Shown: positions 41,929 to 64,000 of the stretch, in pieces
Numbering within the stretch: position 1 is the first letter of the stretch
Layout of the letters: the number at the start of each line of letters is the position of its first letter
Assembly: GCF_000426045.1 (NCBI RefSeq)
Contig: NZ_AUEP01000003.1
Location: forward strand, 310,001-374,000
Length of the DNA: 64,000 nt
Direction of reading: 5' to 3'
Source of the DNA: Marmoricola sp. URHB0036
GTDB taxonomy: Bacteria > Actinomycetota > Actinomycetes > Propionibacteriales > Nocardioidaceae
Position numbers and translations under genes: made by a program
The notes under the pieces: generated by a model
Database searches by the model: none
What the model saw: the letters and a program-made list of their open reading frames with translations, nothing else
What the model was told of the DNA's origin: nothing

Positions 41929-41944
41929 TCGAACATGAGCTCGA
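41929..41944. promoter_or_regulatory. SOS-box-like palindrome over the methyltransferase start
   Basis: TCGAACATGAGCTCGA differs from TCGAAC-N4-GTTCGA in one base and covers the ATG. With the -10 directly upstream, it would sit on the transcription start. LexA or a self-acting methyltransferase could use it; unproven. Confidence 0.5.
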
Positions 41945-44756: not shown

Positions 44757-44766
44757 AGCTATCTTC

Positions 44767-47476: not shown

Positions 47477-47641
47477 GTCGTCCCCTCCGTGGTCGCACAC
47501 GCTAGATCGCCCCACCGACACAAGTCATGGCTTTGGTGAGGCTTCCGACTTTCGACGGATGGCGCCCGCTCGTCCGCAGATCTTGATAGGACTAGTGGGG
47601 GCACCACACGGCGCCCATCGACATGAACAGAAGGGCTCGGG
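47477..47641. promoter_or_regulatory. divergent intergenic region, sigma factor and helicase operon
   Basis: 165 bases must hold both promoters. On the minus strand TAGCGT (near 47504-47509) lies about 27 bases before the sigma start, with a GGAGGGG ribosome site. On the plus strand AGAAGGG lies about ten bases before GTG 47642. I see no LexA, PafBC or NrdR site and no clear palindrome here. Confidence 0.45.
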
Positions 47642-50600
47642 GTGCTGGACGAGGACGCGCTGTGGCGACGGTGCGAGCTGGCGTGGGGCTCTTGGCTGGA
47701 GGACCGTGGGTACGCCGTCACGCCGCTCGGTGAGGCCGTCGGCAACACGGAGCGCTCCCGTGCCCCGCTCACCAAGGTGGGTGGCGAGCACCTGCGCAGC
47801 CCAGACTTCTCGGCCATCAAGGGCGGGGCCACGGCGTTCTGGGAGGTCAAGAGTCGGTCGCGCGCATCCGTGGATCCGCTCACCGGCGAGAGCCAGCACT
47901 GGATCGACAAGGCCGCGTTCACCGACTACCTCAAGATCAGCGCCAAGACCGGGACGCCGGTGTGGGTCGTCCTCTACGAGGCCCCTACGGCGACCGCGCC
48001 GGGACGTTGGTTGCAGACCGACGTCGAGCACCTGCGCGAGGTCGGCAGTTACGACGTTCGCCGTGGAGCGAGCGGGGGGTTCGTGCCCGCCTGGGTGTGG
48101 CCCGTCTCGGAGATGCACGAGGTGCCGGGACCCGTGGTCGACGTCGCGGTGGGCGAGGAGCCCATCCTCCCGGACGAGGGGGAGGGCGACGCCGTCGAGG
48201 CTGCGGACCTGTTCCCCGTCGAGCGCACGCTTCGCCGCAGGCGGAGCGTCGTAGCGGTGGTGGATGCTCCGGAGGCGAAGCGTGCGAAAGATGTCGTCGC
48301 CGAAGGACCGCTCCCGCACGAGTGGCTCGAGCAGGACCCCGCGCTCGCCCTCGACGTCCTGCGGCGCTCCCTCGGAGTGCCCCACTTCCCGCGGTACTCA
48401 GTCCTGCGGATCGGGCTCGAGGGCATCGACCTCGATGACCTCCTCGGCCTCGTGGAGTACGGCGTCCGCGTGTTCATCGTGTCGACGACCACCCGTGCTC
48501 ACCTGCTGGCACACGAGCGGTTCAAGGCGTACGAGGACGCGCGACTCCTCGAGTGGGCAGTCGTCGCCGACGTGGACCTGACCGACACCTGGATCGTGGA
48601 CGGGGAGGGACTCGACGCCCTCCCCAACAGCGTCAAGGCCGCGCTCATGGCCGCCGACGCGGCCGGCGGCCTCAACCTCGCTCAGTACCGCGTCGTGCAC
48701 GCGCCGGCTGACTCTGACGTCGTCGTCAGCGCGGGGGCCGGGACGGGCAAGACCGAAACCATGTCGGAGCGCATCGTCTACCTGCTAGCGACTGGTTCAG
48801 GTCGATCAACTGGCAAGGGGGAGGAGCCCCAAGACCTGAGAGCCGACGAGATCGCGCTGATCACCTTCACCCGCGAGTCTGCCTCGGAGATGCGTCACCG
48901 GATCGCCAGGACGCTGCTGCTCCGTCAGCGGCTGTGCGGGTCTTGCGCGCTCCCGGTCCTGGCCTGGATGCTCCAGCTGGCGCGAGCCGACATCACGACG
49001 ATCCACTCGTTCGCCAAGAGAGTCATCGCCTCGGGCGGTGGAGCCATCGGCCTCGGGCCCGACGCACGGGTGGCGCGACGGACTCTCGAGGTGCAGGACG
49101 CGGTGCAGCAGGCGCTGTCCAGCCGACTGGTGCAGCTTATTGACCAACACCACGAAAAGGTCCCCGCGGCGTACGAGTGGCAGAGGCACGTGCTGGCCGT
49201 CTGGGAGGCGCTGGAGAACAACGGGGTCGACCTGCTGGGTGTCGCCAGACCATCCGGCGTCGATGACGTCGACTGGGGAAGCTCGCCTGACGGACACCTC
49301 GGCCAGCAGGTGGTCGCCCTGACGAAGGCAGTCGTCGAGGATGCTGCGGCCACCCTCTCAGCCACCTACCTGCGCGACCAGACGCTGCCGACGAACGCAC
49401 TCGTGCCGGCTGCCACAGCCGTCCTCCGCACCAAGGGGGAACCGCAGGTCCGGCCCTACCGGCACCTCTTCGTCGACGAGTTCCAGGACACCGACGCCGG
49501 GCAGATGGACCTCGTCCTCGACGTGCGAGAGCGGCTCGGGGCGAGGCTCTTCGTGGTGGGTGACGTCAAACAGGGCATCTACCGCTTCCGCGGAGCCGAG
49601 GGCAACGCGTTCCACGAGCTAGACGAGCGATTCGGCGCGCGGGAACTGCCGGCGCCGCGCACGTACAACCTGACCCGGAACTTCCGTTCGGGCGAGAAGC
49701 TTCTCGACTCCATGCACCCGTGGTTTGCCGCGTGGGGCTCGGAAGATCTCCTGCCGTACTCCCCCCAAGACCGGCTGCGACCTCAGATTCGCCAGACGGA
49801 CCCCAGTTGCCCCGCATCGATCGAGCGGATCAGCGTCAAGGACTTCGCCGTCGAGGCAGCGGCGATCGTCGAGCGGTGGCAGACCCCCGAGTCGGGCGAC
49901 CAGATCGGCATCCTGTGCCGCGAGAACTGGCAGGCCATCGCCGTGCAGAGGGCGGTTCGCGAGCGCAAGCTACCGTGCGAGCTGCGTGTGGGTGGCAGCT
50001 TCTGGTCGTCCCCGGCGGTGCGCGACCTACGGGTGCTCCTGGAGGCGGTCGCCGACCACGACGACGCGGCGGCGCTGCTCGAGCTCTGTGAGACCCGGTG
50101 GGCAGCCGGGATCCTGGGCGGCCAGGCACCGACCGGCGTCGAGGCGATGTCCTGGGGAGGCGATGTGGGCGTACCCGTCGCCTGGCAGACCCGGTTCGTC
50201 CACGTCGTGGAGGACGGCAGCTTCCGTCGTGACGACCTGGCGCCCTTGCGGGACCGGATGGGGCTCCTCGCCGGGTTGCTCTCCACTGCGCCGCTGCTGG
50301 AGTGGGTCGTCGAGTGCACCCGCGTGTTCGCCCCGGAGGCGTGCTCGTTGCCGGGCGAGGACGACGAGACGGAGCGTCGGCGCTACGGCCGCTGCCTGGA
50401 CCACCTCCTGACCCTCCTCGACGCCCAGTTCCAGGACGGGCCGCTCAGCCTCGAGCGGCTCCTCTCCTGGCTGCGGCTCCAGATCGCGACCAACCGCACC
50501 GAGGACGAGCCCGACCCGGAGACCGGCGGCCGGATCGTCGCGTTGACGGTCCACAAGGCGAAGGGGCTCGAGTACGACCGGGTCGTCGTGCCGTCCACGA

Positions 50601-50929
50601 ACCGGCAGTTCGGGCCGCCCCGCTCCGTGACGACCCGCACGGCCGTCCTGCGCCCGCCCGACGAGCAGGTGCGGCTGCTGTGGAGGTGGCACCTCAACAA
50701 GGGCCAGTGGAACGAGACGGACTACACCAACGTGCCGGTCACCCGCCAACTCGACGACTGGGGCACCGACGACACCGATACAGCGCGCGAAGAGGCACGC
50801 CTGCTGTACGTCGCGATGACGCGCGCCAAGGAGGAGCTGGTGCTGATGGTGGACCACCGAGCCAGGGTGAGCACGACCAGCCCCACCTGCTGGGCCGACC
50901 TGCTGATGATGGGAGACCCTCGTGGGTGA
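47642..50929 (+). CDS. UvrD/AddA-like helicase with N-terminal PD-(D/E)XK nuclease domain
   Basis: 1095 residues. Residues 1-140 look like a nuclease: PDFSAIKGG at 54-62 and FWEVKSRSR with Glu-Val-Lys at 68-70 form the PD-(D/E)XK centre. The SF1 helicase starts at about 345: Walker A AGAGTGKT 364-371, ITFTRESASEMRHR, DEFQD 612-616, VVGDVKQGIYRFRGAE, ALTVHKAKGLEYDRV and LLYVAMTRAKEEL. Real AddA/RecB carries its nuclease at the C-terminus, so this is a rearranged relative. First gene of the operon; overlaps the next by eight bases. Expected to unwind and cut DNA ends; GTG 47642 start. Confidence 0.85.
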   Translation: MLDEDALWRRCELAWGSWLEDRGYAVTPLGEAVGNTERSRAPLTKVGGEHLRSPDFSAIKGGATAFWEVKSRSRASVDPLTGESQHWIDKAAFTDYLKISAKTGTPVWVVLYEAPTATAPGRWLQTDVEHLREVGSYDVRRGASGGFVPAWVWPVSEMHEVPGPVVDVAVGEEPILPDEGEGDAVEAADLFPVERTLRRRRSVVAVVDAPEAKRAKDVVAEGPLPHEWLEQDPALALDVLRRSLGVPHFPRYSVLRIGLEGIDLDDLLGLVEYGVRVFIVSTTTRAHLLAHERFKAYEDARLLEWAVVADVDLTDTWIVDGEGLDALPNSVKAALMAADAAGGLNLAQYRVVHAPADSDVVVSAGAGTGKTETMSERIVYLLATGSGRSTGKGEEPQDLRADEIALITFTRESASEMRHRIARTLLLRQRLCGSCALPVLAWMLQLARADITTIHSFAKRVIASGGGAIGLGPDARVARRTLEVQDAVQQALSSRLVQLIDQHHEKVPAAYEWQRHVLAVWEALENNGVDLLGVARPSGVDDVDWGSSPDGHLGQQVVALTKAVVEDAAATLSATYLRDQTLPTNALVPAATAVLRTKGEPQVRPYRHLFVDEFQDTDAGQMDLVLDVRERLGARLFVVGDVKQGIYRFRGAEGNAFHELDERFGARELPAPRTYNLTRNFRSGEKLLDSMHPWFAAWGSEDLLPYSPQDRLRPQIRQTDPSCPASIERISVKDFAVEAAAIVERWQTPESGDQIGILCRENWQAIAVQRAVRERKLPCELRVGGSFWSSPAVRDLRVLLEAVADHDDAAALLELCETRWAAGILGGQAPTGVEAMSWGGDVGVPVAWQTRFVHVVEDGSFRRDDLAPLRDRMGLLAGLLSTAPLLEWVVECTRVFAPEACSLPGEDDETERRRYGRCLDHLLTLLDAQFQDGPLSLERLLSWLRLQIATNRTEDEPDPETGGRIVALTVHKAKGLEYDRVVVPSTNRQFGPPRSVTTRTAVLRPPDEQVRLLWRWHLNKGQWNETDYTNVPVTRQLDDWGTDDTDTAREEARLLYVAMTRAKEELVLMVDHRARVSTTSPTCWADLLMMGDPRG

Positions 50930-53675
50930 CATGCGCGCGCTGGCGCTGCCGAGGGTGTCCCGCGACGCGATCGCCGAGGCACTCCAGCAGCAGACAGGTC
51001 TGGGCTGGGTCGACGTGGCACACGTGACCGCCACCACCACCCTGGCGCGTGCGGTCCGGGACGAGGGATCGCTCGCCTTTCCCGTGGCGACGTTGATCGA
51101 CCTCGTCACGCTCCCCGGACTGCCGGGGGAGATGAGCCTGTCACTGGACGGCTTCCCCGTCCCAGATCTCTTCGCGGCGAGACCCAAGGTGCACGGTGCA
51201 CGGGTGAGCGACTGGCAGGACGAGGCCTCCGGCCGACGGCTCCGCACGGGCATCCAGGTCGACGACTCGTTGCGTCGTTTCGTGCGGGAGCACGCCCAGG
51301 GCAGAGTCGGACGTGCGCTGCTGTCCTCGCGGCGTCAGTACGCCACCACCGTCCACGCGCTCGTCGCTGCCGGCGTGCGTCCCGACTCGCTCGTCGCCAA
51401 GGACCCGGCCGCTCGGCTCGCTGCCAAGGCGTGGGCCCAGGCCGAGGTCGACGTCCCGTCGCTCGGGGCGCCACGTGACCTGCTCTGGGTCGACCTAGAC
51501 GAGCTCGAGGGCCAGTCGACCCCGCAGGCACAGGGCCTGAGGGAGCGGATCGTCGCAGCACTTGACCGGGCATTCGGTCGCGCCGAGCGGCGCACGATCG
51601 TGCACCACGGCTTCTACTTCTACAACCCCGTCCAGTGGGCGTTCTTCCAGGCGTTGGCCCGCGTGCCGGGCGTGGACCAGGTGTTCATCGTCCACGACGA
51701 CGGCGACAACCCCGCCTTCTCCACCTGGCGCTACTTCTTCCGCACCGAGTGGCAGATGCCCGTCCCGTTCCCGGTGTATGTCGACCACGACGTCTCATCT
51801 GGGGCACGGGCCTTCCGTGGCGTGCTGACAGGTGCCGAACCCGGGTCGCCCGCGGCAGTGCGAGTGGTCGAGTGCCGCAGTCCCGCCGAGCTGGTGCGGC
51901 TCTGGCGCGCCGAGACCGCGGACGGCCAGGTTGCGCCGGCTCGATTCGCCGCTGCGGCCGAGCAGGTCGAGCGGTACGTCGGCAGGCTCGGGCGACAGGA
52001 CGCAAGGGACTCTGACGCCTTCGACCAACCTGCGGCGCCGAGCCTGTCCCAGCTGCCCGTGGGGAGCTTCCTGCTCGCCCTCCACGGGTGCATCACTCAG
52101 GACGACAACGGTGCTGTCTCCTTCGTGGTGAGCCCGGACGCCATGCTCGACATGGTCGCGAGCGGCTACCTCGAGGTAGGAGCACCCATGGACACAGCCG
52201 GTGCCCCGTTACTCCGGCGGGTGCTGCCCTACTTCACCGGCTGCCAGTTCGCGGACGACTGGACCCGACGGGCCGACCAGCTGGTGGAGTCCGTTGAGGG
52301 GCGGGTGGCCCCCCGCGGAGCCCGGGACGAGACGGACAACGACGCCAGACGCATCGAGCTCGCCGTCGCGAACCTCACGCGCCGGGTGCCGTGGGCGGAC
52401 ATCTCGACGACCGACGCCGCCCGGGTTCGCGACACGGTCCACGCTGTCGTACGACTGCTCGAGGAGACCACCGCCAGGGAGCGGGTGGTCTTGGGTGAAC
52501 ACCTCCGGACGGTCCGTCAACGCCTGGACCGCGCGCTCCGTCAGCTCCCTCCCGACCAGGCGCGGGCCGTCGAGGCCAAGCTGCGTGGCCTTGGTGTCCT
52601 CACCGACGAGGAGATCGACGTCGCCGGCCTGGTCGACGTCGTCGCGATGATCCTCGGGCGCAGCCTCGACCTCGAGGACAAGGAGAGCGAGGACCCGGCG
52701 CGCACCAGGGTGACCAAGCTCAGGGGCCTTGACGCACTCGGACTGGCCCGAGTGGAGAAGGACCTGCACCTCGCCAACATGGCGGAGGACGCCTTCCCGA
52801 CAGCGGCGCAGGCGGTGGGGTGGCCCTTCACTTTGGACGACCTGCGCGCGTCCACCGACGACGCCGTCGAGCCGGTCACGGCAGGCCTGCTGGAGACACG
52901 GGCGCAGACCGCGGGTCTGAGCGACCTCTACCTCTTCTGGCTCGCGCTCGACGGCGTCGGCCCGGAGGGGACGGTCACCGTCAGCTGGGTCTCCGACTCC
53001 GCCGGCGAGCGGCGGCGGCTGTCACCGATCGTCTCGTTGCTTACGGTGCCCGCGTCGACGGAGGCTGTGCGAGACGTCGTCGGCGGAGTTGAGGTTGAGG
53101 CAGGTCCCAGTCCGGCGCAGCAAGACGCCGACCGTGTACGGCCCGAGCCCGCGGAGGCGGACGAGGGCGAGGATGATCTCGAGGGAGCAGTCGACTCCGT
53201 AGACGCCCGGGCAGGCGCGGCCTCGCGAGCCTGCCCCCGGCGATTTGCCCTCCAGTGGGCCATGGGTCCGACCGCTTCCTTCGGGCCAAGCCACCTCCAG
53301 TCGATGCTGTACGGCAACCTCGTCGGAGCGCTTGAGGTCGAGGGCGAGTCGTCGCTCGTCGCACGGGCGACGGGCAACGTCCTCTGGCCGCACCTGACGG
53401 AGGGTCAGCGGCGGAGCAGCTACGACAAGCGCGTGGTCAAGCACCACGGGGCCAAGCCGGAGTGGTTGCTGACCCTCAAGGGCACGCAGAGCGGCTCCAG
53501 CGACCTGGACGCTGCCTACCAGCTTGCGAAGGACGGAGACTACGTCGACGACCTCACCATTGCTCCACCAAGTGCGCAGCTTCTGCCCCCCCGCGCCGAG
53601 AGCGCTGAGGTCTGTGCGTCCTGCCCCGTGCAAGCCCGCTGTTCGCAGTGGCGCGACCCGAGGGACGAGAAGTGA
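50922..53675 (+). CDS. AddB/RexB-like protein with Fe-S cysteines, nuclease centre apparently lost
   Basis: 917 residues. Cysteines C771 (SRACPRRFALQW), C898, C901 and C907 (VCASCPVQARC) have the C-xn-CxxCx5C spacing of the iron-sulfur staple in AddB and Cas4-type nucleases. The 126 residues between them are shorter than usual and I find no D-x-ExK motif. The N-terminal region resembles an inactive helicase (no intact Walker A). So it is a probable scaffold partner of the preceding AddA-like helicase. GTG 50922 has GGGAG upstream; ATG 50931 also possible. The overlap with the preceding gene supports a complex. Confidence 0.7.
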   Translation: MGDMRALALPRVSRDAIAEALQQQTGLGWVDVAHVTATTTLARAVRDEGSLAFPVATLIDLVTLPGLPGEMSLSLDGFPVPDLFAARPKVHGARVSDWQDEASGRRLRTGIQVDDSLRRFVREHAQGRVGRALLSSRRQYATTVHALVAAGVRPDSLVAKDPAARLAAKAWAQAEVDVPSLGAPRDLLWVDLDELEGQSTPQAQGLRERIVAALDRAFGRAERRTIVHHGFYFYNPVQWAFFQALARVPGVDQVFIVHDDGDNPAFSTWRYFFRTEWQMPVPFPVYVDHDVSSGARAFRGVLTGAEPGSPAAVRVVECRSPAELVRLWRAETADGQVAPARFAAAAEQVERYVGRLGRQDARDSDAFDQPAAPSLSQLPVGSFLLALHGCITQDDNGAVSFVVSPDAMLDMVASGYLEVGAPMDTAGAPLLRRVLPYFTGCQFADDWTRRADQLVESVEGRVAPRGARDETDNDARRIELAVANLTRRVPWADISTTDAARVRDTVHAVVRLLEETTARERVVLGEHLRTVRQRLDRALRQLPPDQARAVEAKLRGLGVLTDEEIDVAGLVDVVAMILGRSLDLEDKESEDPARTRVTKLRGLDALGLARVEKDLHLANMAEDAFPTAAQAVGWPFTLDDLRASTDDAVEPVTAGLLETRAQTAGLSDLYLFWLALDGVGPEGTVTVSWVSDSAGERRRLSPIVSLLTVPASTEAVRDVVGGVEVEAGPSPAQQDADRVRPEPAEADEGEDDLEGAVDSVDARAGAASRACPRRFALQWAMGPTASFGPSHLQSMLYGNLVGALEVEGESSLVARATGNVLWPHLTEGQRRSSYDKRVVKHHGAKPEWLLTLKGTQSGSSDLDAAYQLAKDGDYVDDLTIAPPSAQLLPPRAESAEVCASCPVQARCSQWRDPRDEK

Positions 53676-53691
53676 CGGTGCAGGTCGCAGC

Positions 53692-53697
53692 TAGGTT
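53692..53697 (+). promoter_or_regulatory. -10 hexamer TAGGTT, possible internal promoter
   Basis: TAGGTT ends six bases before GTG 53704, the spacing seen at leaderless genes elsewhere in the window. It would let the DrmD-like gene and those after it be expressed separately from the AddAB-like pair. Confidence 0.45.
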
Positions 53698-53703
53698 GTG
53701 CGG

Positions 53704-56565
53704 GTGACTGACGTGGCGCAGGGCGAGCGCGTTGCGCCAGCACCGGGATCGGTGCTGGTCGTGCGCGACGAGGAGTGGCTGGTCACCCGCACCGAACGAT
53801 CGGCCGACGGCGAGTGGTTCATCGACGTCCAGGGCCTCTCCGAGCTCGTGCGGGACACCTCTGCGACGTTCTCGACCGGGCTCGACGCCATCGAGGTGCT
53901 TGACCCCTCGCAGGCGCAGGTCGTCGCCGACGGAACCCCTGGTTACCGTCGCTCCCGGCTGTGGTTGGAAGCGACCTCCCGCAAGACAGCCGTCCCGGTG
54001 ACCGACCCGACCCTCACGGTCGCCACCCAGGGCCTGGCCGACGCCCTGCCCTACCAGCTCGAAGCCGTCCGCAAGGCGCTGGACCCGCAGAACCTGCGGC
54101 CGCGCATCCTGCTCGCCGACGCTGTCGGCCTGGGCAAGACCATCGAGATCGGCATGATCCTCTCCGAGCTCATACGCCGCGGCCGTGGTGAGCGGATCCT
54201 CGTCGTCACCCCCCGCCACGTGCTGGAGCAGATGCAGCACGAGATGTGGACCCGCTTCGCGCTGCCCTTCGTCCGGCTTGACTCGGTCGGCATCCAGCGC
54301 ATCCGCCAGAAGGTGCCGGGCAACCGCAACCCGTTTGCCTACTACAAGCGCGTCGTCATCTCGATCGACACCCTGAAGAGCGACCGCTACCTCAGCCATC
54401 TGCGCAAGCAGCACTGGGACGCTGTCGTGATCGACGAGTCCCACAACGTCACGGGTGCCTCGCAGAACAACCGCCTGGCACGGCTGCTGGCCTCAAGGAC
54501 CGATGCGCTCATACTCGCCTCCGCGACGCCGCACAACGGGCGCAAGGAGTCCTTCGCCGAGCTGGTGCGGATGCTCGAGCCGAGCGCCGTCACCCCCCAT
54601 GGCGAGCTGGTCACGGAGGAGGTCAAGCGACTCGTCATCCGACGACACCGGCACAGCCCCGAGGTGGCCAGCCACGTCGGCGGTGACTGGGCCGAGCGTC
54701 TTCCTCCGGACAACCAAGTGGTGAAAGCCTCACCGGTCGAGGACGAGATCGCGCGCGAGCTCGACGAGGTCTGGCTGCACCCCCGGTCCGGCCGCAGCCC
54801 GTACTCCGGCCCGAACGCGTCGCTCTTCCCGTGGACGTTGATGAAGGCGTTCCTGTCCTCGCCTGCTGCGCTGATCACGAGCGTCCGCGAGCGACGTCGC
54901 AAGGTCGACCCCGACCTTGGTGCCGACGAGCGCGCGGAGGACGACGCCCTCGCGCGGCTGCTCTCGATGGCCGAGCGTGCCCACATCGAGCCGAGCGGCA
55001 AGTACGACGCCCTGCGCGCCCACCTCGACGACATCGGGGTCGCCAAGCAGAGCCCGACCCGCGTCGTGGTCTTCGCCGAACGGGTCGCCACGCTGGAGTG
55101 GCTCCAGGCCAGGCTCTGCCACGACCTCAGGATGACGACGGACCAGGTCGTGGTGCTGCACGGCGGCCTCACCGACGTCGACCAGCAGGACGTGGTCGAG
55201 TCGTTCAAGCTGGAGTCGTCGCCGACCCGGGTGCTCGTGACCGGCGACGTTGCCTCCGAAGGGGTGAACCTGCACCTCCAGTGCCACCACCTCGTCCACT
55301 ACGACATCCCGTGGAGCCTGATCCGGATCCAGCAGCGCAACGGCCGCATCGACCGCTACGGCCAGCGGCACCGTCCCCGCATCACGACCCTGCTGCTCGA
55401 CCCGCAGGCGGAGGGGTCGCTCGGCGACCTGCGCGTGCTGACCCGCCTGATGGAGCGCGAGCACGAGGCCCACTTGGCGCTCGGCGACTCCGCCTCGTTG
55501 ATGGGTCAGCACGACGTCGCCCGCGAGGAGGACAAGATCCGTCGCGTCCTCGCCGAGCAGCAGTCGTTCGACGAGGTCGTCCGCGCGGTGGAGGACGTCG
55601 GGACGGGCGACGATTTCGACGACTTGTTCGCCGCGATCGTGGCCGCGCCCGACGACGAGCCCGCCGTTTCCGTCGACCACGAGCCGTCGGGCGTCTACCC
55701 GAGTGACCTTGACTTCCTGCGCGACACCCTGGACGAGGTCTTGTTGACCCCGGGTCGGCCGTGGCCGGACGGCGTCTCGTGGCAGGAGGACCGGGCCTAC
55801 CAGGTCGCCGACCTGGAGCCCTCACCAGACCTGCGGCGCCGGCTCGAGGTGCTGCCGCAGACCTACCTGCGGGAACGCCGCGTCACCGAGCGGCTCCGTC
55901 TCGCCACGACTACGCGGCGTGGCGAGGAGGCGATGGAGGCGGCACGAGCCGAGGACGGGATCACCTGGCCCGAGGCGCACTTCCTGGCCCCCCTGCACCC
56001 CGTGCTGGACTGGGCGGCGGACCGGGCGCTCGCCCAGCTGGGTCGCAACCAGGTCTTCGCGGTCCGAGGCCCGGTCGACGAGGTGGCCGTGCTCATGCAC
56101 GGCATGCTCACCAATCGGCGAGGCCAGGCCGTGGCCTCGTCGTTCCTGTCGCTGCGGTTCGTCGGCGGCGGAGCGACAGGCCTCGTGCTGCCCGAGCCGC
56201 ACCCCTCGCTCAGGCGTGCGCTGGCGTCGGTCGGCCTCGACGGGGCGCCGGTCAACATGGGTGCACTGGTCGACCTGGAGGACCTGCAGGCGTACGTCGC
56301 ACCAGGGGTCGATCAGGGACACGCCTTCCTCTCGTCGCTGGTCGAGACGTCCGCCGCGGATGTTCGCTCGCGCGTCGACGCCTGGTTCGAGCGCGTCAGC
56401 CAGTGGGAGGTGGACGCCGCCCGCGAGGCCCAGCGCCTCGAGCTGCGCGACCGGGCCGCGCTGGTGTCCCGTGAGCGTGAGGTGGCGGAGTCGCTGCTGC
56501 CCGACCAGCGCCTCGTCCGTCCGCTCCTCGTCGTAGTCCCGTCCTCCCGTGGAGGTCAGCCGTGA
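53704..56565 (+). CDS. SNF2/HepA-type helicase, DrmD-like (DISARM class 1)
   Basis: 953 residues. Walker A-type AVGLGKT at 140-146, DESH at 244-247, SATPHNGRKESF (motif III), FAERVATLEWL, GDVASEGVNLHLQCHHLVHYD and QQRNGRIDRYGQ at 543-554 are the SNF2/RapA series. The long C-terminal region (about 620-953) has no named domain. Size and position, directly before a large N6-methyltransferase gene and a DEAD-type helicase gene, match DrmD of class 1 DISARM; HepA-like helicases also occur in BREX. GTG 53704 is preferred to GTG 53698 because of the TAGGTT spacing. Its stop overlaps the methyltransferase start (GTGA). Confidence 0.82.
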   Translation: MTDVAQGERVAPAPGSVLVVRDEEWLVTRTERSADGEWFIDVQGLSELVRDTSATFSTGLDAIEVLDPSQAQVVADGTPGYRRSRLWLEATSRKTAVPVTDPTLTVATQGLADALPYQLEAVRKALDPQNLRPRILLADAVGLGKTIEIGMILSELIRRGRGERILVVTPRHVLEQMQHEMWTRFALPFVRLDSVGIQRIRQKVPGNRNPFAYYKRVVISIDTLKSDRYLSHLRKQHWDAVVIDESHNVTGASQNNRLARLLASRTDALILASATPHNGRKESFAELVRMLEPSAVTPHGELVTEEVKRLVIRRHRHSPEVASHVGGDWAERLPPDNQVVKASPVEDEIARELDEVWLHPRSGRSPYSGPNASLFPWTLMKAFLSSPAALITSVRERRRKVDPDLGADERAEDDALARLLSMAERAHIEPSGKYDALRAHLDDIGVAKQSPTRVVVFAERVATLEWLQARLCHDLRMTTDQVVVLHGGLTDVDQQDVVESFKLESSPTRVLVTGDVASEGVNLHLQCHHLVHYDIPWSLIRIQQRNGRIDRYGQRHRPRITTLLLDPQAEGSLGDLRVLTRLMEREHEAHLALGDSASLMGQHDVAREEDKIRRVLAEQQSFDEVVRAVEDVGTGDDFDDLFAAIVAAPDDEPAVSVDHEPSGVYPSDLDFLRDTLDEVLLTPGRPWPDGVSWQEDRAYQVADLEPSPDLRRRLEVLPQTYLRERRVTERLRLATTTRRGEEAMEAARAEDGITWPEAHFLAPLHPVLDWAADRALAQLGRNQVFAVRGPVDEVAVLMHGMLTNRRGQAVASSFLSLRFVGGGATGLVLPEPHPSLRRALASVGLDGAPVNMGALVDLEDLQAYVAPGVDQGHAFLSSLVETSAADVRSRVDAWFERVSQWEVDAAREAQRLELRDRAALVSREREVAESLLPDQRLVRPLLVVVPSSRGGQP

Positions 56566-59500
56566 GCGCCAGCGACGCGATCGTGGTCGGAGGCGACTGG
56601 ATCAGCGAGCACTACCTGACCACCGACGCCACCAAGGAGTCCTTCAAGGCCCGGGCGCTCGCTCGGCGCAAGGCTTGGGACGACGCCGAGACAGAGACCG
56701 CGCGCAGCAGGTTCACCGCCGGCCGAGCCGACCTGCTGGCCCGGCTGGCTCGCCTGGCGGAGGACCCCGGCCTCAACACGGAGTTGCGGACCGACCTCGT
56801 CTCCGTCCTCGGCTTCGATGCCATCGGGCTGCGGCACGAGACCTCCGGCCCGCTCACCCTGGTGATCCAGGCCAGCCTGCCCGACGTGTCCGGCGTGGCG
56901 CTGGTCGCCGGCGTGCCGGTCGAGTCGGTCGAGGACCTGCTGGCCAAGGACGCGCCCACCCTCGCCGAGCCCTTCAGGGACGACGAGACCGGCGACGTCG
57001 TCATCTCCGCCTCCCGGATGTTGTCCAGCCTGTTCGTGCAGGAGCACGGCCCGGCGTTCGCCCTCGTCCTCGCCGGACGGGTGCTGCTGGTGGCCGAGAA
57101 GGAGCGGTGGGCGGAGGGCCGCTACCTGTCGCTCGACGTCCAGTTGCTCTGCGAACGCAACGACCTGACGAAGGGCGGCGAGGTCGACCAGGCACTGTCG
57201 TGCCTGTCCGCGGAGTCCCTCGCGCCGGACGCGGAGGGGACAGTCTGGTGGCACGACGTGCTGGAGGAGTCCGTCAAGCACACTGTCGGTGTCTCGCAAG
57301 ACCTGCGTGAGGGCGTGCGGCTCTCTATCGAGCTGATCGCCAACGAGGTGGTCACCCGTCGTCGCGAGCAGGGCCTGGAAGCGCTGCCCCCGGCAGAGGC
57401 ACAGCCCCTGGCGAAGCAGGCGCTGCGCTACCTCTACCGCATCCTGTTCCTGCTGTACGCCGAGGCGTCTCCGGAGCTCGGCGTGCTGCCGGTCGGCGCG
57501 CCCGAGTACGACGCCGGCTACAGCCTCGACCGGCTCCGCGAGCTCGTGCAGGTGCCTCTGACCGACCCACGGGCCGAGCGCGGAACCCACCTCTACGACT
57601 CGCTCGGGGTGCTCTTCCGGCTCGTCGACCAGGGCTACCAGCCCGAGGTGAGCAAGGACGAGGAGGGGCTGCTCGAGCCCCTGCAGTTCCGGTCCCTGCG
57701 AGCAGACCTCTTCCACCCCGACGCGGTTGCGCACGTCGCTGAAGTCGGTCTTGGCAACGCCCGGCTGCAGGAAGTGCTGCAGCACCTGCTGCTGTCGAAG
57801 GAGACGCGTGGTCGCGACCGCGGCTTCATCTCCTACGCCGAGCTCGGCATCAACCAGCTCGGAGCCGTGTACGAGGGCCTGATGTCCTACACCGGACGTT
57901 TCGCCGAGACCGACCTCTATGAGGTGGCCAAGGGCGGCGACTCGTCCAAGGGGTCGTGGCTCGTGCCCGTTGAACGGTCGGGCGGCATCGACGAGGAGGA
58001 CTTCGTTCGCGCCGAGGACAAGGTCACCGGCGAGCTGAAGCCGGTGCTCCACCAGCGCGGCGCGTTCGTCTTCCGGCTGGCGGGCCGCGAGCGCCAGCAG
58101 TCGGCGTCCTACTACACCCCCGAGGTGCTGACAAGGTTCACCGTCGGCCAAGCGCTCGAGGAGCTGCTCGATCAGGACGGCGAGCGCACCACCGCCGAGG
58201 AAATCCTGGCGCTCACGGTCTGCGAGCCGGCCCTGGGCTCGGGGGCGTTCGCGATCGAGGCCGTGCGGCAGTTGGCGGCGGAGTACCTCACCCGTCGGCA
58301 GGAGGAGCTCGGGGAGCGGATCGACCCCGAGGCGTACCCGCGCGAGCTGCAGAAGGTGAAGGCCTATCTGGCGCTCCACAATGTCCACGGCGTCGACCTC
58401 AACGCGACCGCCGTCGAGCTCGCCGAGGTCTCGCTGTGGCTCGACACCATGGTGGAGGGGCTGCAGGCCCCGTGGTTCGGCCTCCACCTCAAGAGGGGCA
58501 ACTCCCTCATCGGAGCCCGGCGCGCCGGCTTCACACGGTGGGACCTGCAGTCCAAGTCGTGGCTCACGACGGTCCCGACGGACATTGGCGATCGATCAGA
58601 TCTTGTCCACCACTTCCTCGTCCCGGCCGAGGGCTGGGGTGCCGCGGCGGATGTCGGCAAGGAGGTCAAGGAGCTCGTCTCCGAGGCAGTTGCCGACCTC
58701 AAGACCTGGCGCCGCTCGACCAGGTCCAAGCCGAGCAAGAAGCACCTCGACCTCCTGACTGAGCTCGCTCAGCGCGTCGAGACCCTGTGGGTGATCGCCT
58801 CTCGTCGCCTCGAGATCGCTGATCAGCAGGCTCGCCGCGAGATCCCGCTCTGGGGTCGTGAGCAAAAGACAACGGCAGCGGCTTACGTTACTCGCGAGCA
58901 GATCGAGGAGTCGCTCGCCGACCCAGACGGCGCCTACCAGCGACTCAAGCTCGTCCTGGACGCTTGGTGTGGGCTCTGGTTCTGGCCGCTGACTGAGGAC
59001 CTTAAGAGCGACGGCACCACCCCTCCCACCCTCGAACAGTGGTACGACGCACTTGCCAAGATTCTCGGGGGGACGGGTTCCGCCAGGGCCAACCAACATG
59101 GCGATGCAACGCTGGCCGACGTGGTCACCTGGGACGACCTCGCCGTCGCGGAAGCGCTCGACCGCGATTTTGCAGGTGCGATGCGTGTCGAGCGGGTCAT
59201 CGTGGATCACCCATGGCTCGACGTTTGCCGTCGGGTCGCGGCTCAGCAGGGGTTCTTCCACTGGGAGTTGGACTTCGCAGTGGTGTTCGAGCGCGGCGGC
59301 TTCGACCTGCAGGTGGGGAACCCACCGTGGGTGCGTCCCACCGCTGACGTCCCAGCCCTGCTGGCCGAGGGGGATCCCTGGTGGCAGCTCGCCCTTCGAC
59401 CTTTACAAGCTGAGATCATCCGGCGTCAGGCACAAACCTTGAAGCTCCCGGGGATCCGGAGCTTGGTGATCGACGGAACCGTGGACGTGAACGTCACCTC

Positions 59501-61175
59501 GGCGTTCGTGGGTGCGCCGCAGCTCTACCCCCATCTCAAGGGGCTCCAGCCAGACCTCTACCGCTGCTTCATGGAGCAGACCTGGAGCCACCAGTCTCAG
59601 AGCGGCAGCGTCGCGCTGATCCACCCGGAGTCGCACTTCACGGACGAAAGGGCGGGAGCTTTGAGAGCGGCAACCTATCGCCGCCTTCGGCGGCACTGGC
59701 AGTTCCACAACGAGTTGGCTCTGTTCGAGATTGATAACCACGTCACTTTTGGCGTGCATGTGTACGCAGCGACGAGGGAGGAAACCGGTTTCCTCACGGC
59801 CAGTTCCCTTTACCACCCGGACACCATCGTCCGGTCGTTCGACCATCGGGGGGGTGGGGCAGAGCCGGGTCTGAAAGACGCAGAGGGCAGGTGGGACCTG
59901 CGTCCTCATCGGGACCGGATTCTTAAGGTGTCGGAGGCGACGCTCACGACTTGGCACGCCCTGCTGGAGAGCTCGGCCGTCCCGGTGTCGCAGACCCGCA
60001 TGGTGTACACGGTGAACATGGCTAGTGCGGCCGTCTTGGAGAAGCTATCTAGCCAGGAGCGACTGGGCTCGTTGCCCCTGGAGTTCTCGGCCGGCTGGCA
60101 CGAGAAGAACGATCGGACCCGGGGGTACTTCGAGAGCCAGTGGGGCCCTGCGAATTCTTGGAGCGACGTCATCCTTCAGGGGCCGAACTTCCATGTGAGC
60201 GTGCCGTTCTACAAAGTCCCGAACCCAACGATGAAGAGCAACAAAGACTGGTCCACGGTCGACCTGGAAACGCTTGCATGCGACGCGGTTCCGGTGACGT
60301 ATTACAAGCCCGGCGATGACCGCGCGAAGTATGACCGGGACTACACACATTGGGGCGAGGACAAAGAACTTGCGGCCCGCGACTACTACCGGGTTGCTTG
60401 GCGAGTAATGGCCGCAACGACGGGTGAGCGCACGTTGATTCCCGCGCTCATCCCCCCAGGATCCGCTCACGTAGACGCAGTGCAATCGCTTGCGATTCCT
60501 GACGAGCCACGCTCACTCGTGCTGACCTTGGCAGTTCTTAGTGCACTCACTAGTGACTTCAGCGTTCGGTGCGTCCCGAAGGGCCACATCCGTGCTGCGA
60601 CCGTGCAACGCCTTGCCTGGATCCCGGAGCATCCGTTGGCAGACAATCTCCTGGCTCGCACACTGCGACTGAATTGCATCACGAGCGCATACGCGGGACT
60701 TTGGGAGAAGGCTGTCTCCGCGGTGACGAAGTCGGATGAGTGGGCCGGAGGGATTGAGTATCAGGGCCGCCCCGCAATGGCCGCGGTTGTTGGAAGTTGG
60801 AACAGCGACGCGCCGCTCCGCCGGGCGTCTGACCGCCGTCAGGCGTTGGTCGAGATCGATGCCATCGTGGCTCTGTGTCTCGGCCTGACAGCCGACGAGC
60901 TGTGTACGATCTACCGCACCCAGTTCGCGGTTCTCGCCGGCTACGACCGCAACACCTACTTCTACGACGCGAACGGCCGCCGCGTGCCGAACTCAGTGCT
61001 GAACGTCTGGCGCAAGAAGGGCGGCGACATTGGCCCGGAGGAGCGCACCGCGACCAATGCCTCGGGCAACACCTACACCTACGAGCTGCCGTTCGTGACG
61101 CTGGACCGCGAGGCCGACATGCGGCAGGCGTACGCCCACTTCGAGAAGGTGCTCGCGGAGCGGGGCGGCGCGTGA
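56562..61175 (+). CDS. large N6-adenine DNA methyltransferase, DrmMI/PglX-like
   Basis: 1537 residues. The SAM motif CEPALGSGAFAIEA is at 554-567 and the catalytic NPPW at 920-923, an adenine-N6 (gamma-class, Eco57I/PglX-like) arrangement with about 350 residues between the motifs. Residues 1-550 are a helical N-terminal region and those after 925 contain the probable target-recognition part. No nuclease motif is visible, so this is a modification enzyme that should mark self DNA. The stretch near 59,400-60,950 is richer in A and T than its flanks, as expected for an exchanged recognition domain. Overlaps both neighbours by four bases. Confidence 0.85.
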   Translation: MSASDAIVVGGDWISEHYLTTDATKESFKARALARRKAWDDAETETARSRFTAGRADLLARLARLAEDPGLNTELRTDLVSVLGFDAIGLRHETSGPLTLVIQASLPDVSGVALVAGVPVESVEDLLAKDAPTLAEPFRDDETGDVVISASRMLSSLFVQEHGPAFALVLAGRVLLVAEKERWAEGRYLSLDVQLLCERNDLTKGGEVDQALSCLSAESLAPDAEGTVWWHDVLEESVKHTVGVSQDLREGVRLSIELIANEVVTRRREQGLEALPPAEAQPLAKQALRYLYRILFLLYAEASPELGVLPVGAPEYDAGYSLDRLRELVQVPLTDPRAERGTHLYDSLGVLFRLVDQGYQPEVSKDEEGLLEPLQFRSLRADLFHPDAVAHVAEVGLGNARLQEVLQHLLLSKETRGRDRGFISYAELGINQLGAVYEGLMSYTGRFAETDLYEVAKGGDSSKGSWLVPVERSGGIDEEDFVRAEDKVTGELKPVLHQRGAFVFRLAGRERQQSASYYTPEVLTRFTVGQALEELLDQDGERTTAEEILALTVCEPALGSGAFAIEAVRQLAAEYLTRRQEELGERIDPEAYPRELQKVKAYLALHNVHGVDLNATAVELAEVSLWLDTMVEGLQAPWFGLHLKRGNSLIGARRAGFTRWDLQSKSWLTTVPTDIGDRSDLVHHFLVPAEGWGAAADVGKEVKELVSEAVADLKTWRRSTRSKPSKKHLDLLTELAQRVETLWVIASRRLEIADQQARREIPLWGREQKTTAAAYVTREQIEESLADPDGAYQRLKLVLDAWCGLWFWPLTEDLKSDGTTPPTLEQWYDALAKILGGTGSARANQHGDATLADVVTWDDLAVAEALDRDFAGAMRVERVIVDHPWLDVCRRVAAQQGFFHWELDFAVVFERGGFDLQVGNPPWVRPTADVPALLAEGDPWWQLALRPLQAEIIRRQAQTLKLPGIRSLVIDGTVDVNVTSAFVGAPQLYPHLKGLQPDLYRCFMEQTWSHQSQSGSVALIHPESHFTDERAGALRAATYRRLRRHWQFHNELALFEIDNHVTFGVHVYAATREETGFLTASSLYHPDTIVRSFDHRGGGAEPGLKDAEGRWDLRPHRDRILKVSEATLTTWHALLESSAVPVSQTRMVYTVNMASAAVLEKLSSQERLGSLPLEFSAGWHEKNDRTRGYFESQWGPANSWSDVILQGPNFHVSVPFYKVPNPTMKSNKDWSTVDLETLACDAVPVTYYKPGDDRAKYDRDYTHWGEDKELAARDYYRVAWRVMAATTGERTLIPALIPPGSAHVDAVQSLAIPDEPRSLVLTLAVLSALTSDFSVRCVPKGHIRAATVQRLAWIPEHPLADNLLARTLRLNCITSAYAGLWEKAVSAVTKSDEWAGGIEYQGRPAMAAVVGSWNSDAPLRRASDRRQALVEIDAIVALCLGLTADELCTIYRTQFAVLAGYDRNTYFYDANGRRVPNSVLNVWRKKGGDIGPEERTATNASGNTYTYELPFVTLDREADMRQAYAHFEKVLAERGGA

Positions 61176-64000
61176 GCGAGCTGCTGCCCACGACCCAGGC
61201 GCCGCGGGTCCAGCAGAGCATCCTCGACTACCTGGCCACCACGTTCTCCCTGGCCGACGAGGAGGCGAGGGCAGCGCTCGTGGACCTGCTGCAGGACCGG
61301 GAGAACGGGATCTTCAAGGGGCCGTACCTCCGGGTGCGCCTCCCGTTCCGGCCGGCCGAGGAGGGGTGGCGCGAATCGCTGGGGTGGCACGAGGGCTACC
61401 CGCCGTACGGTCACCAGGCCGCCGCCTTCCAGCGCCTGAGCAGCCTCGACCTCGGCCCGGACAAGACGCGGCCGCTGCCCACCCTGGTCACGACCGGCAC
61501 CGGGTCCGGGAAGACCGAGGCGTTCCTGCACCCGATCCTCGACCACGTCGTGCGGGCGAAGCAGCGGGGCGTCACAGGCACGAAGGCCGTCGTGGTCTAC
61601 CCGATGAACGCCTTGGCCAACGACCAGGCTGGCCGACTGGCCGGGATGATCACCCAGCACCAGCAGCTCTCGGGGATCACCGCGGCGCTGTACACCGGCC
61701 AACAGGGAGCTACCCGGTCCCGAGTCAGCAGGGACGGACTGATCACCGACCGCTACGTCATCCGGCGGCAGGCACCCGACATCCTGCTCACCAACTACAA
61801 GATGCTCGACCAGCTGCTGCTGCGCGAGGCCGACCAGCAGATCTGGACGCAGAGCGCCACCAGCCTGCAGTACCTCGTGCTCGACGAGTTCCACACCTAC
61901 GACGGCGCACAGGGCACCGACGTCGCCATGCTGTTGCGTCGACTCGGGATGGCCCTGAAGAGCCACTGGCCTGAGGACGCCTTCACCGCCGCCGACCGGG
62001 CTCGTCCGCTCGGGATCGTGACGCCGGTCGCCACGTCGGCGACCCTGGGCGACAAGGGCGACCCGGCCGCCATGCTGGACTTCGCGCGCACCGTCTTCGG
62101 TGAGGACTTCGAACCCGACTCCGTCGTCACCGAGACGCGCCTGGGGCTCGACGAGTGGCTCGGCGAGCCCGCCACCTCGCTGGTGCCGCGCACAGACCGG
62201 TCGGCGCTCGAGCTGGCCGTGGAGACGGGGAGCCAGCAGGTCACGGGCCGGCTGATCGCCGAGCGCGTGCTGTCCTCACTCTTCGCCGACGCGGACGGCG
62301 CGGCGCCGATGCTCGCTGGGGCCAGCGCGATCGAGATGCTGGACCTGGTCAAGGCGCACCCCTTGACGAGGTCGCTGGTCGAGGCCGCCGAGCAGGCTGT
62401 TTCCCTCGCCGAGCTGGTTGACCGGGTGCTGCTTTCGTACGCCGCCGACGAGGCCTCGCGCGCCACGGCCGAGCAGGTCCTGCTGCTGTGGAGCGCGGTG
62501 CTGAGCCACGTCCGCAAGGAGGTCGGCCTCGACGCGCTGTCGGTCGACCTGCACCTGTGGGTGCGCGAGCTCAGCCGGATCGACCGACGGGCGAGCGGCA
62601 CGCCCGACTACCTGTGGTCCGACGATCGGCACCTCACTCACGGCGAGGAGGGCGCGGGCGGGGTGCAGGCCTTCCCGGCGGTCTACTGCCGCCACTGCGG
62701 TCGCTCCGGCTGGGCGGTGCTCCGTGCTCCCATCGGTGGGTTCGACCTCACGGGGGCAGACCCCGACGACGTGCGCCGTGCCCGCATCCTCGACGACCGT
62801 GAGTTCCGGGCGCTGATCCACGCCCCGGTCGAGGCCGAGCAGGGCAACGCCGATCCGGCTCACGATCCCGACGAGCCGCGGCTGATGTGGCTGCACGCCG
62901 AGCAGCGGCAGGTGCTCCCGACCCTCCCCGCGGACGACGCCGAGCTCGCCGAGGGACGCGCGCTCCCGGTTCTTGCGCACGCCGGTCCGAGGGCAGGTGA
63001 CCTGTCCCGTGACGACACCTGCCCCTCTTGCCTGCAGAAGGACGGCATCCGGTTCCTCGGCTCGGCCGTGGCCACCCTGCTCTCGGTCTCCCTGTCGACG
63101 ATCTTCGGCGGCGATGACCTCGACCAGGCGGAGAAGAAGTCCCTGGTGTTCACCGACTCGGTGCAGGATGCCGCCCACCGAGCGGGTTTCGTGCAGAGCC
63201 GGTCCCACAGGCTCACCCTGCGCGCCGTGGTGCGGGCGGCGGTGGGTGACGACCCGGTGTCGCTCGACCAGGCCGTCGAGCGAGTGCTGACGCAGGCGGG
63301 TGACGACAAGCACCGGCGGTACCGAATCCTCCCGCCCGAGCACGCCGACCGCGACGAGTTCGCGCCCTTCTGGAAGCAGGAGCGTCAGCGCCGGGTGCCG
63401 CCCGCGGTCATGCGTCGCGTGCGCAAGCGCCTGCTCCTCGACCTCGTCCTGGAGGTCGGCCTCCAGTCGCGGCTGGGTCGGACCCTCGAGCTGACTGGCA
63501 GCCTCGCGGCACAGGTCGAGGCGTCGCGCGCCACCCTGCTCCGCGCCGTCTCGGAGGTCGAGAAGGTGCTCGGGGAGGAGCATGTGCAGGGGCTGGGCGT
63601 CACCGACGAGGACCGCGTCCGGTGGGTTCGTGGCGTCCTCGAGCGCATGCGCACCGACGGCGCCGTGCAGCACGAGTGGTTCCGCCGGTTCCAGGCCGAG
63701 GACGGCCGCCGCTACTCCATCTGGGGCGGTCGACCCGCGACCGACGGGATGCCCGCCTTCCCGCGCGGCCGCCCCGCCCCGGCCTACCCACGCGTCGGCG
63801 GAGGAGGCAGTTCCCGGGACACCGACCTGGTGCCCGCCGCCTCCGCGAGGAGCTGGTACGCCGTGTGGACGGCCCGGGCGCTCGGCTGCGCGCCGGTCGA
63901 GGGTGCCTCACTGGTCGTGCAGCTGCTCAAGCAGCTCGCGGCACTCGACGTCGTGCAGGTGGTCAACACCCAGTCGGGCGCCCAGGTCTACGAGGTCCTC
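61172..64000 (+). CDS. DEAD-type helicase with zinc cysteines, DrmA-like, 3' end outside the window
   Basis: The frame opens at GTG 61172 (overlapping the previous stop) and is still open at base 64000, so at least 943 residues are present. TTGTGSGKT at 107-115, YPMNALANDQ, LTNYKMLDQLLLREAD, DEFH at 238-241 and ATSATLGD mark an SF2 motor. YCRHCG near 505 and CPSC near 617 suggest a zinc ribbon, and SLVFTDSVQDAAHRAGF is a typical motif IV-type segment of YprA/DUF1998-linked helicases. Order after the methyltransferase fits DrmA of DISARM. drmB and drmC, if present, lie beyond the window. Confidence 0.8.
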   Translation, partial: MSELLPTTQAPRVQQSILDYLATTFSLADEEARAALVDLLQDRENGIFKGPYLRVRLPFRPAEEGWRESLGWHEGYPPYGHQAAAFQRLSSLDLGPDKTRPLPTLVTTGTGSGKTEAFLHPILDHVVRAKQRGVTGTKAVVVYPMNALANDQAGRLAGMITQHQQLSGITAALYTGQQGATRSRVSRDGLITDRYVIRRQAPDILLTNYKMLDQLLLREADQQIWTQSATSLQYLVLDEFHTYDGAQGTDVAMLLRRLGMALKSHWPEDAFTAADRARPLGIVTPVATSATLGDKGDPAAMLDFARTVFGEDFEPDSVVTETRLGLDEWLGEPATSLVPRTDRSALELAVETGSQQVTGRLIAERVLSSLFADADGAAPMLAGASAIEMLDLVKAHPLTRSLVEAAEQAVSLAELVDRVLLSYAADEASRATAEQVLLLWSAVLSHVRKEVGLDALSVDLHLWVRELSRIDRRASGTPDYLWSDDRHLTHGEEGAGGVQAFPAVYCRHCGRSGWAVLRAPIGGFDLTGADPDDVRRARILDDREFRALIHAPVEAEQGNADPAHDPDEPRLMWLHAEQRQVLPTLPADDAELAEGRALPVLAHAGPRAGDLSRDDTCPSCLQKDGIRFLGSAVATLLSVSLSTIFGGDDLDQAEKKSLVFTDSVQDAAHRAGFVQSRSHRLTLRAVVRAAVGDDPVSLDQAVERVLTQAGDDKHRRYRILPPEHADRDEFAPFWKQERQRRVPPAVMRRVRKRLLLDLVLEVGLQSRLGRTLELTGSLAAQVEASRATLLRAVSEVEKVLGEEHVQGLGVTDEDRVRWVRGVLERMRTDGAVQHEWFRRFQAEDGRRYSIWGGRPATDGMPAFPRGRPAPAYPRVGGGGSSRDTDLVPAASARSWYAVWTARALGCAPVEGASLVVQLLKQLAALDVVQVVNTQSGAQVYEVL

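Follow-up and report, generated by a model that had tools for sequence, protein, structure and literature searches.

Is a bacterial operon that joins an AddAB-like helicase-nuclease pair to a helicase and DNA methyltransferase core one defence system or two? The question is raised by a window (the whole stretch of DNA analysed, 64,000 nt) of Marmoricola sp. URHB0036, corresponding to positions 310,001-374,000 of contig NZ_AUEP01000003.1 (genome G000 in the following). An earlier note on this DNA had described five overlapping or nearly touching genes and read them as a class 1 DISARM-like core with an AddAB-like pair in front. The five open reading frames are indeed found there, on the plus strand, and the view of a defence operon in which such a pair precedes a SNF2-methyltransferase-helicase core with kinship to DISARM holds; the class 1 DISARM label does not, and ARMADA type II fits instead. 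According to our analysis, the operon probably harbors two defence modules, namely a restriction-linked AddAB-like end-processing system and an ARMADA type II system nested inside it. The locus looks like two packed systems because the relatives of the pair are mostly found without ARMADA and often beside restriction-modification genes. This reading is based on gene content, motifs, two predicted folds, neighbourhood counts and the low ratios of nonsynonymous to synonymous substitution (dN/dS) that the outer genes retain after loss of the core in one genome.

The eight-gene operon and its ARMADA-like core

With the numbering of the window carried on into the same contig for coordinates above 64000, the genes belong to a run of eight plus-strand genes spanning 26,287 bases and reaching past the window end (Table 1). 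They follow each other in the order AddA-like, AddB-like, SNF2 (ArmA), methyltransferase (ArmB), a very large DEAD/MZB protein (ArmC), UvrD (ArmD), NOV_C and a second SNF2 protein (SNF2b). The seven junctions measure, in operon order, -8, +22, -4, -4, -1, -1 and +9 bases; for ArmC, whose earliest possible start lies at 60875, the GTG at 61172 was taken, which gives a 4-base overlap with the ArmB stop. The same eight genes are present in the same order in a genome of another genus, Nocardioides (G522), with protein identities of 73-90% and dN/dS of 0.09-0.21. The arrangement is therefore more than chance, as the order is kept in a second genus at low dN/dS.

ARMADA is a described relative of DISARM (Bell et al. 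2025 preprint, PMC12458937). Type II is defined there by a YprA-like helicase, with a BrxHII/RapA-like SNF2 gene and a PglX-like methyltransferase gene as a pair ahead of the YprA gene, and this is the order of ArmA, ArmB and ArmC at 53698-67516. Searching plasmids by tblastn with ArmB, we came upon an E. coli locus beside a Zorya II gene (L006) with the same SNF2-methyltransferase-DEAD-UvrD order, whose proteins share 35.2% (ArmA), 34.7% (ArmB), 32.0% (ArmC) and 33.9% (ArmD) identity with those of the window. The residues mutated in E. coli, i.e., ArmA K136 and D236, ArmB G605 and N971, ArmC K110 and D234, and ArmD K266 and D454 (PMC12458937), are conserved at all eight positions in the alignments, where they correspond to ArmA K147 and D246, ArmB G559 and N920 (in an NPPW motif), ArmC K114 and D238, and ArmD K283 and D486. 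The strain of that paper is NCTC 12900; the E. coli proteins used here were taken from a different strain's plasmid and have identical residues at those positions. Because gene order, E. coli alignments and the eight residues agree, we file genes three to six as ARMADA type II, and as far as can be judged from sequence they fit a complete set, with ArmA, ArmB, ArmC and ArmD in order.

The domain content of the single proteins is consistent with this assignment. ArmB matches the PADLOC type IIG model PDLC03611 over its full length (1479.6 bits, and 181.5 bits to DrmMI), while the DruE models are the nearest PADLOC family of ArmC (DruE3 258.6 bits vs. 57.8 bits for DrmA). An MZB (DUF1998) zinc domain lies within ArmC at residues 1574-1663 (Pfam), followed at residues 1757-1827 by a weak, Vsr-like match (MTES_1575, E 0.00062, under the Pfam cut-off) with the motifs PDF and VFCDGW; a Vsr-type nuclease at the ArmC C-terminus is given as a feature of ARMADA type II (PMC12458937). 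The alignment of ArmD with E. coli ArmD includes the N-terminal part, which is stated to be RelE-like in E. coli (PMC12458937), and in a tree ArmD falls into a 16-member ArmD clade (support 0.996). What sets the locus apart from ARMADA type II as described is that the four genes stand within a longer operon, together with the AddA-like, AddB-like, NOV_C and second SNF2 genes.

The alternative of a class 1 DISARM with an AddAB-like addition has in its favour a SNF2 helicase, an N6-adenine methyltransferase and a YprA-family helicase, and ArmA reaches 314 bits with the NCBIfam DrmD model. This score, like the 308.5 bits of SNF2b, is nevertheless under the model's cut-off of 610, and ArmC resembles DruE, as in Druantia, rather than DrmA; the DrmAL model gives 24.8 bits against a cut-off of 999. 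The proposed order drmD-drmMI-drmA is thus better described as ArmA-ArmB-ArmC. The separate drmB and drmC genes that the earlier note proposed to look for beyond 64 kb are not among the genes found there, which are UvrD, NOV_C, SNF2 and, on the other strand, an HSP70-like gene, a gene without recognised relation and a GmrSD gene; DUF1998/MZB is instead fused into ArmC, and no phospholipase D match was obtained in the following genes scanned. We reject class 1 DISARM on these grounds and regard it as extremely improbable. ArmC likewise recalls Druantia, as does a nearby cytosine-5 methyltransferase that matches DruM2, but neither DruH, DruF nor DruG is among the listed matches of the proteins scanned, and the set of SNF2, methyltransferase and UvrD is that of ARMADA.

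The outer genes with and without ARMADA

The AddA-like protein carries a predicted Hjc-type PD-(D/E)XK domain at about residues 6-163 (PD at 54-55, EVK at 68-70). Its best NCBIfam match is addA (TIGR02785) at 128.8 bits, which stays below the AddA equivalog cut-off of 707.65. The AddB-like protein has no Pfam, PADLOC or NCBIfam match, and searching PDB sequences with the AddB profile returned no significant match (best E 0.19); only the fold search assigned it, with AddB as the best match of the predicted model, in a structure comparison that covers Foldseek candidates only and in which the lack of a family proves nothing. The pair thus resembles AddAB, RecBCD and AdnAB in combining an SF1 motor with an AddB-fold partner that has four Fe-S-type cysteines. 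It differs from them in that the RecB-type nuclease PDDEXK_1 was recognised in neither protein at E 0.001 (the modelled AddB C-terminus being of low confidence), in the predicted Hjc-type domain at the N-terminus of the motor subunit, and in being an extra genomic copy. Of the remaining outer genes, NOV_C matches PF13020 and PDC-S36 (315.3 bits) and shows the motifs GYDV and IEVK, and SNF2b matches the PADLOC DrmD model PDLC02623 with 428.2 bits over residues 131-994.

Could the pair be a duplicated housekeeping AddAB or AdnAB repair enzyme that plays no part in defence? The AddB fold would agree with this, as would addA being the best, albeit far sub-threshold, NCBIfam match. On the other hand, the pair is found in only three of 341 genomes of the family, its nuclease type and place differ, and cytosine-5 methyltransferase and Vsr genes are its neighbours. 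The G000 genome also holds, on contig C6, two long UvrD-type frames with PF12705 that look like AdnAB, and in the tree all nine AddA-like proteins group together (support 1.0). Since separate AdnAB-like frames exist and the AddA-like proteins form a clade of their own, the pair appears to be an additional copy and not the housekeeping enzyme of this genome. We rejected the housekeeping duplicate for its rarity in the family, the separate PF12705-type enzymes and this clade, and consider it very improbable.

The pair is rare. AddB was found in one of 396 genomes of a phylum sample (G000 itself), in four of 391 genomes of an order sample (G000, G522, the Nocardioides genome G784 and G746, whose weak match of 18 bits over 108 aa was left out of the locus count) and, by profile search, in three of 341 genomes of the family. 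A scan of genome contigs with the AddB alignment, which catches only what its two peptide patterns match, returned 11 loci from two Nocardioides (G784 and G522), Isoptericola and eight Bacillota. Together with two plasmids (Geobacillus and Exiguobacterium) and the window, this gives 14 pair loci. The Exiguobacterium plasmid AddB (L087), which has no tblastn match to the window AddB at E 1e-4, was included on account of its place behind an AddA relative and of a 19% alignment in which the cysteines are conserved. Viral contigs scanned with ArmB, AddB and SNF2b yielded no relative.

Only two of the 14 pair loci (G000 and G522) have an intact ARMADA core and one (G784) has a remnant; at the other 11, the 13-30 kb examined yielded a match to neither ArmA nor ArmB, several of these stretches being cut by contig ends. 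One pair locus, L091, contains two YprA-type helicases of 882 and 889 aa. In eight of ten Bacillota loci a third UvrD-like gene follows the pair, and as judged from gene order this triplet looks like a stand-alone module. Rossellomorea has two such AddA-AddB-UvrD triplets in tandem (L094:2497-16786). The third UvrD was considered as a candidate ArmD and rejected: nine of these genes (tandem copies included, the cut gene of L092 left out) form a clade separate from ArmD (support 0.905), and a UvrD node shared with ArmD is therefore not supported.

ARMADA, in turn, mostly does without the pair. At E 1e-20, 51 of 391 genomes from the order contain an ArmB relative, in many cases as a partial or domain match. 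As controls we used both flanks of 20 ArmB genomes and three plasmid loci (L005, L006 and L008), 23 in total; excluded were 29 of the 49 ArmB-match genomes besides G000 and G522, many of them with fragments or single-domain matches, a broken ArmB on a Mycobacterium riyadhense plasmid (L009) and further plasmid ArmB matches. ArmA and ArmB are present in all 20 control genomes (5 kb apart in G647), and ArmC and ArmD then follow within the stretch in 18. AddA, AddB, NOV and SNF2b were not found in the stretches read at any of the 23 loci (at least 60 bits as best match, a few stretches ending early at contig ends), so that two of 25 ARMADA loci carry the pair when the window and G522 are included. 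The pair is therefore no regular part of ARMADA, and the co-occurrence check speaks against a joint system from both sides.

ARMADA operons accommodate other genes as well. SIR2, Schlafen/AlbA, HipA and transposase matches were found among inserted genes of other ARMADA operons (ten proteins at three loci, G647, G609 and G597), and packing alone is therefore no ground to assume a functional link. Inserted stretches split the ARMADA type II genes in G647, G609, G564, G513 and G462 (L059-L060, L069-L070, L073-L076 and L079-L080). On a Tsukamurella plasmid (L005:2998-11155) a hypothetical protein, a UvrD helicase, a helicase-related protein and a DUF1998 protein precede the ARMADA type II core, which is another kind of addition ahead of ARMADA.

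In the G784 assembly, ArmA, ArmB and ArmC residues 1-1932 are missing, and a 175-aa ArmC tail is left as an open frame. Between the intact genomes G000 and G522, pairwise dN/dS (at dS near 1, without significance test, here and below) is 0.173 for AddA, 0.176 for AddB, 0.089 for ArmA, 0.209 for ArmB, 0.157 for ArmC (0.290 for its last 200 codons), 0.153 for ArmD, 0.142 for NOV and 0.131 for SNF2b. Against G000 and G522, respectively, the G784 genes give 0.150 and 0.184 (AddA), 0.174 and 0.178 (AddB), 0.123 and 0.199 (NOV), 0.105 and 0.131 (SNF2b), 0.273 and 0.237 (ArmD), and 0.437 and 0.455 (ArmC tail). As these values are close to those of the intact pair of genomes for AddA, AddB, NOV and SNF2b, the outer genes look selected without the ARMADA core, and ArmD and the ArmC tail look relaxed.

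Restriction-modification genes beside the pair

In G000, G522 and G784 the cluster occupies one chromosomal slot, with a class II ribonucleotide reductase gene and a cytosine-5 methyltransferase gene upstream and an HSP70-like gene downstream. The methyltransferase of the window is the sole PF00145 match of the G000 genome at E 1e-10 and matches PADLOC DruM2 (PDLC00034, 550.9 bits over residues 2-472); among the proteins scanned, no further gene of Druantia type II was identified. Together with the Vsr gene it adjoins the pair in the manner of a type II cytosine restriction-modification system with Vsr. Isoptericola (L090) combines sigma, AddA, AddB, NOV_C, Vsr, HNH and cytosine-5 methyltransferase genes within the 17 kb covered, in which no ArmA or ArmB was found.

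To count such neighbours, Pfam families were searched in the complete genome or record from which each of the 37 loci came, and distances were taken by hand from coordinates. At a distance of up to 11 kb, PF00145 accompanies AddB at 11 of 14 loci and ArmB at one of 23 ARMADA controls (Fisher p 4.6e-6). With the three Nocardioidaceae genomes, the two Geobacillus and the two Exiguobacterium loci each collapsed to one lineage, the count is eight of ten lineages versus one of 14 genera (p 4.9e-4). Vsr is found within 11 kb at seven of 14 pair loci and one of 23 controls (p 0.002). PF00145 has just one match in eight of the AddB genomes, and in seven of these the match is no more than 11 kb from AddB. 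Genes with REase_II matches stand close to the pair in L096, L097 and L098. No cytosine-5 gene lies near the pair in L093 (contig end) or L095, that of L087 is 14.8 kb away, and Vsr is not nearby in seven of 14 loci. At two AddB loci we also observed a protein of the PADLOC candidate PDC-M33A (L096:2530-4455 and L097:19751-21694, 738 and 748 bits).

The suggestion of DNA-end degradation by the pair next to a methylation system may thus survive with a change of partner: what recurs is a cytosine-5 methyltransferase, frequently together with Vsr, and not the adenine methyltransferase named in the earlier note. The UvrD-Cas4 fusions found beside dcm and vsr (PMC5704561) provide a precedent, as they too place an SF1 helicase with a PD-(D/E)XK nuclease in such a neighbourhood. 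They consist of one gene with a Cas4-like domain, whereas the window has separate AddA and AddB genes and a predicted Hjc-type domain.

Table 1. Coordinates of the operon and of the genes upstream of it, in window numbering
Feature	Position	Strand	Description
C-5 cytosine DNA methyltransferase	41935-43362	+	475 aa; PF00145 197.6 bits
533-aa protein	43452-45053	-	candidate restriction-modification endonuclease (guess from position); no Pfam or PADLOC match
352-aa open reading frame	44767-45825	-	overlaps end of the 533-aa frame; no Pfam or PADLOC match
Vsr-type nuclease	45877-46242 (approximate)	-	PF03852 46054-46242; tblastn 45877-46221
Sigma-70-like gene	46319-47521	-	400 aa; divergent, directly upstream of AddA; Pfam sigma70 r2, r3, r4
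AddA-like	47642-50929	+	1095 aa; predicted N-terminal Hjc-type PD-(D/E)XK domain, UvrD/SF1 motor
AddB-like	50922-53675	+	917 aa; predicted AddB fold, four conserved Fe-S-type cysteines
ArmA	53698-56565	+	955 aa; SNF2/RapA-type helicase, ARMADA type II
ArmB	56562-61175	+	1537 aa; PglX-like N6-adenine DNA methyltransferase, ARMADA type II
ArmC	61172-67516	+	2114 aa, first 943 in window; YprA/DruE-like helicase, MZB (DUF1998), putative C-terminal Vsr-like region
ArmD	67516-69726	+	736 aa; UvrD/GajB-like; aligns with E. coli ArmD over its length
NOV_C (DUF3883) protein	69726-70565	+	279 aa; PF13020
SNF2b	70575-73928	+	second DrmD-like SNF2 helicase; DrmD PDLC02623 match

Relatives of the 533-aa protein (31-37%) adjoin the pair in G522, G784 and Isoptericola, and the 352-aa frame has one relative among the loci searched (G522, 72%). 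A sigma-70-like gene is likewise divergent from AddA in G522, G784 and Isoptericola (47%), and among the 341 family genomes its relatives of at least 71% identity occur only in carriers of AddAB. More distant ones (44-46%) are found in G455, G725 and G713, genomes without an AddB match; only identity separates the special gene, as the search at E 1e-45 also caught housekeeping sigma factors (314 of 341 genomes). The C-terminal part of the protein matches PADLOC MzaA (121.6 bits). Past the window, an HSP70-like protein, a 665-aa protein and a GmrSD-RAMA protein are encoded on the opposite strand (L002:13942-19978, minus strand), and the defence island seems to continue downstream of SNF2b.

One system or two

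We posit that the outer module would consist of the AddA-like SF1 motor with its Hjc-type nuclease, the AddB-like partner, the NOV-type nuclease and the second SNF2 translocase, and that the divergent sigma-70-like gene and the cytosine-5 methyltransferase/Vsr module would belong beside it. Restriction cuts or phage DNA ends may provide the entry site from which the AddAB-like machine would unwind and cleave, and ARMADA would work in parallel on phage DNA that lacks the ARMADA methyl mark. Each of these biochemical steps, as well as phage resistance by the outer genes and protection by the methyl mark, we infer.

Several observations weigh against two modules. The tight junctions point to one transcript and possibly to joint function, and the eight-gene order is kept across two genera. 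SNF2b is known from only three genomes, all of Nocardioidaceae (G000, G522 and G784), and orthology of the Isoptericola NOV_C is not evident (blastp E 0.001 over 54 aa). The argument from G784 draws on the single deletion genome known and on pairwise dN/dS of the kind described, with NOV reaching 0.199 in one comparison; the tree moreover places G784 ArmD outside the ArmD of G000, G522 and G562 (support only 0.592), and its higher ratio may therefore come from a different ancestry. Regarding the neighbourhood counts, the 11-kb limit was set after the data had been seen; at 15 kb they are 12 of 14 versus 3 of 23 (Fisher p 1.1e-4, computed with 11/14 entered instead of 12/14). The phyla also differ, the controls being mostly Actinobacteria and ten of the 14 AddB loci Bacillota.

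The same packing and conserved order would suit one integrated eight-gene system, in which the pair is a dedicated RecBCD-type hub that makes single-stranded and duplex intermediates for the DruE-like ArmC, so that ARMADA would no longer depend on a host AdnAB-type enzyme. By analogy, a link between DruE and RecBCD could be invoked, given that the DruE models are the nearest PADLOC family of ArmC: the synergy of Druantia III and Zorya II requires intact RecBCD as a shared DNA-processing hub, and DruE engages intermediates containing single-stranded DNA (PMC13192584). The lack of the pair at the 23 other ARMADA loci read, the many pair loci without an ArmA or ArmB match, and the low dN/dS that the outer genes keep in G784 without the core speak against such a system, which we judge unlikely. 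A related proposal, possible but one we lean against, is that an undescribed AddAB-type family is wrapped here around ARMADA type II as a built-in RecBCD-like hub feeding ArmC; this family would bear an Hjc-type nuclease on the motor subunit in Actinobacteria and, in Actinobacteria and Bacillota, often stand beside cytosine-5/Vsr genes, and ARMADA could then work when a phage disables the end-processing enzyme of the host. The idea of a hub stays alive because the synergy of a DruE-type effector with Zorya II depends on RecBCD (PMC13192584).

At the other extreme, the ARMADA core might merely have landed in an existing operon of a defence hot spot, sharing transcription only, with the restriction-modification neighbours incidental. 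The slot beside the class II ribonucleotide reductase gene that three genomes share and the unrelated insertions in other ARMADA operons (SIR2, Schlafen, HipA and transposase) are in line with this, but the link of the pair with a cytosine-5 methyltransferase recurs in eight of ten lineages and G000-G522 dN/dS is low in all eight genes. We consider this scenario quite unlikely and favor two defence modules within one operon.

The words AddAB and AddB are missing from the main text of the ARMADA paper, as far as drawn on (PMC12458937, supplements not covered), and AddB, AddAB, RecB and UvrD from that of a paper on BREX diversity (PMC12839542). We tentatively raise the possibility, within the open-licence PMC literature and with supplements outside its scope, that the AddAB-type family is undescribed. 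Our findings indicate that a complete ARMADA type II can sit within another DNA-processing operon and that G784 offers an apparent natural deletion separating the two modules, and they draw attention to a rare AddAB-like family that repeatedly has restriction genes as neighbours. Should the pair feed ARMADA, the operon's own genes would allow a test of the RecBCD dependence that a DruE system is reported to have (PMC13192584).

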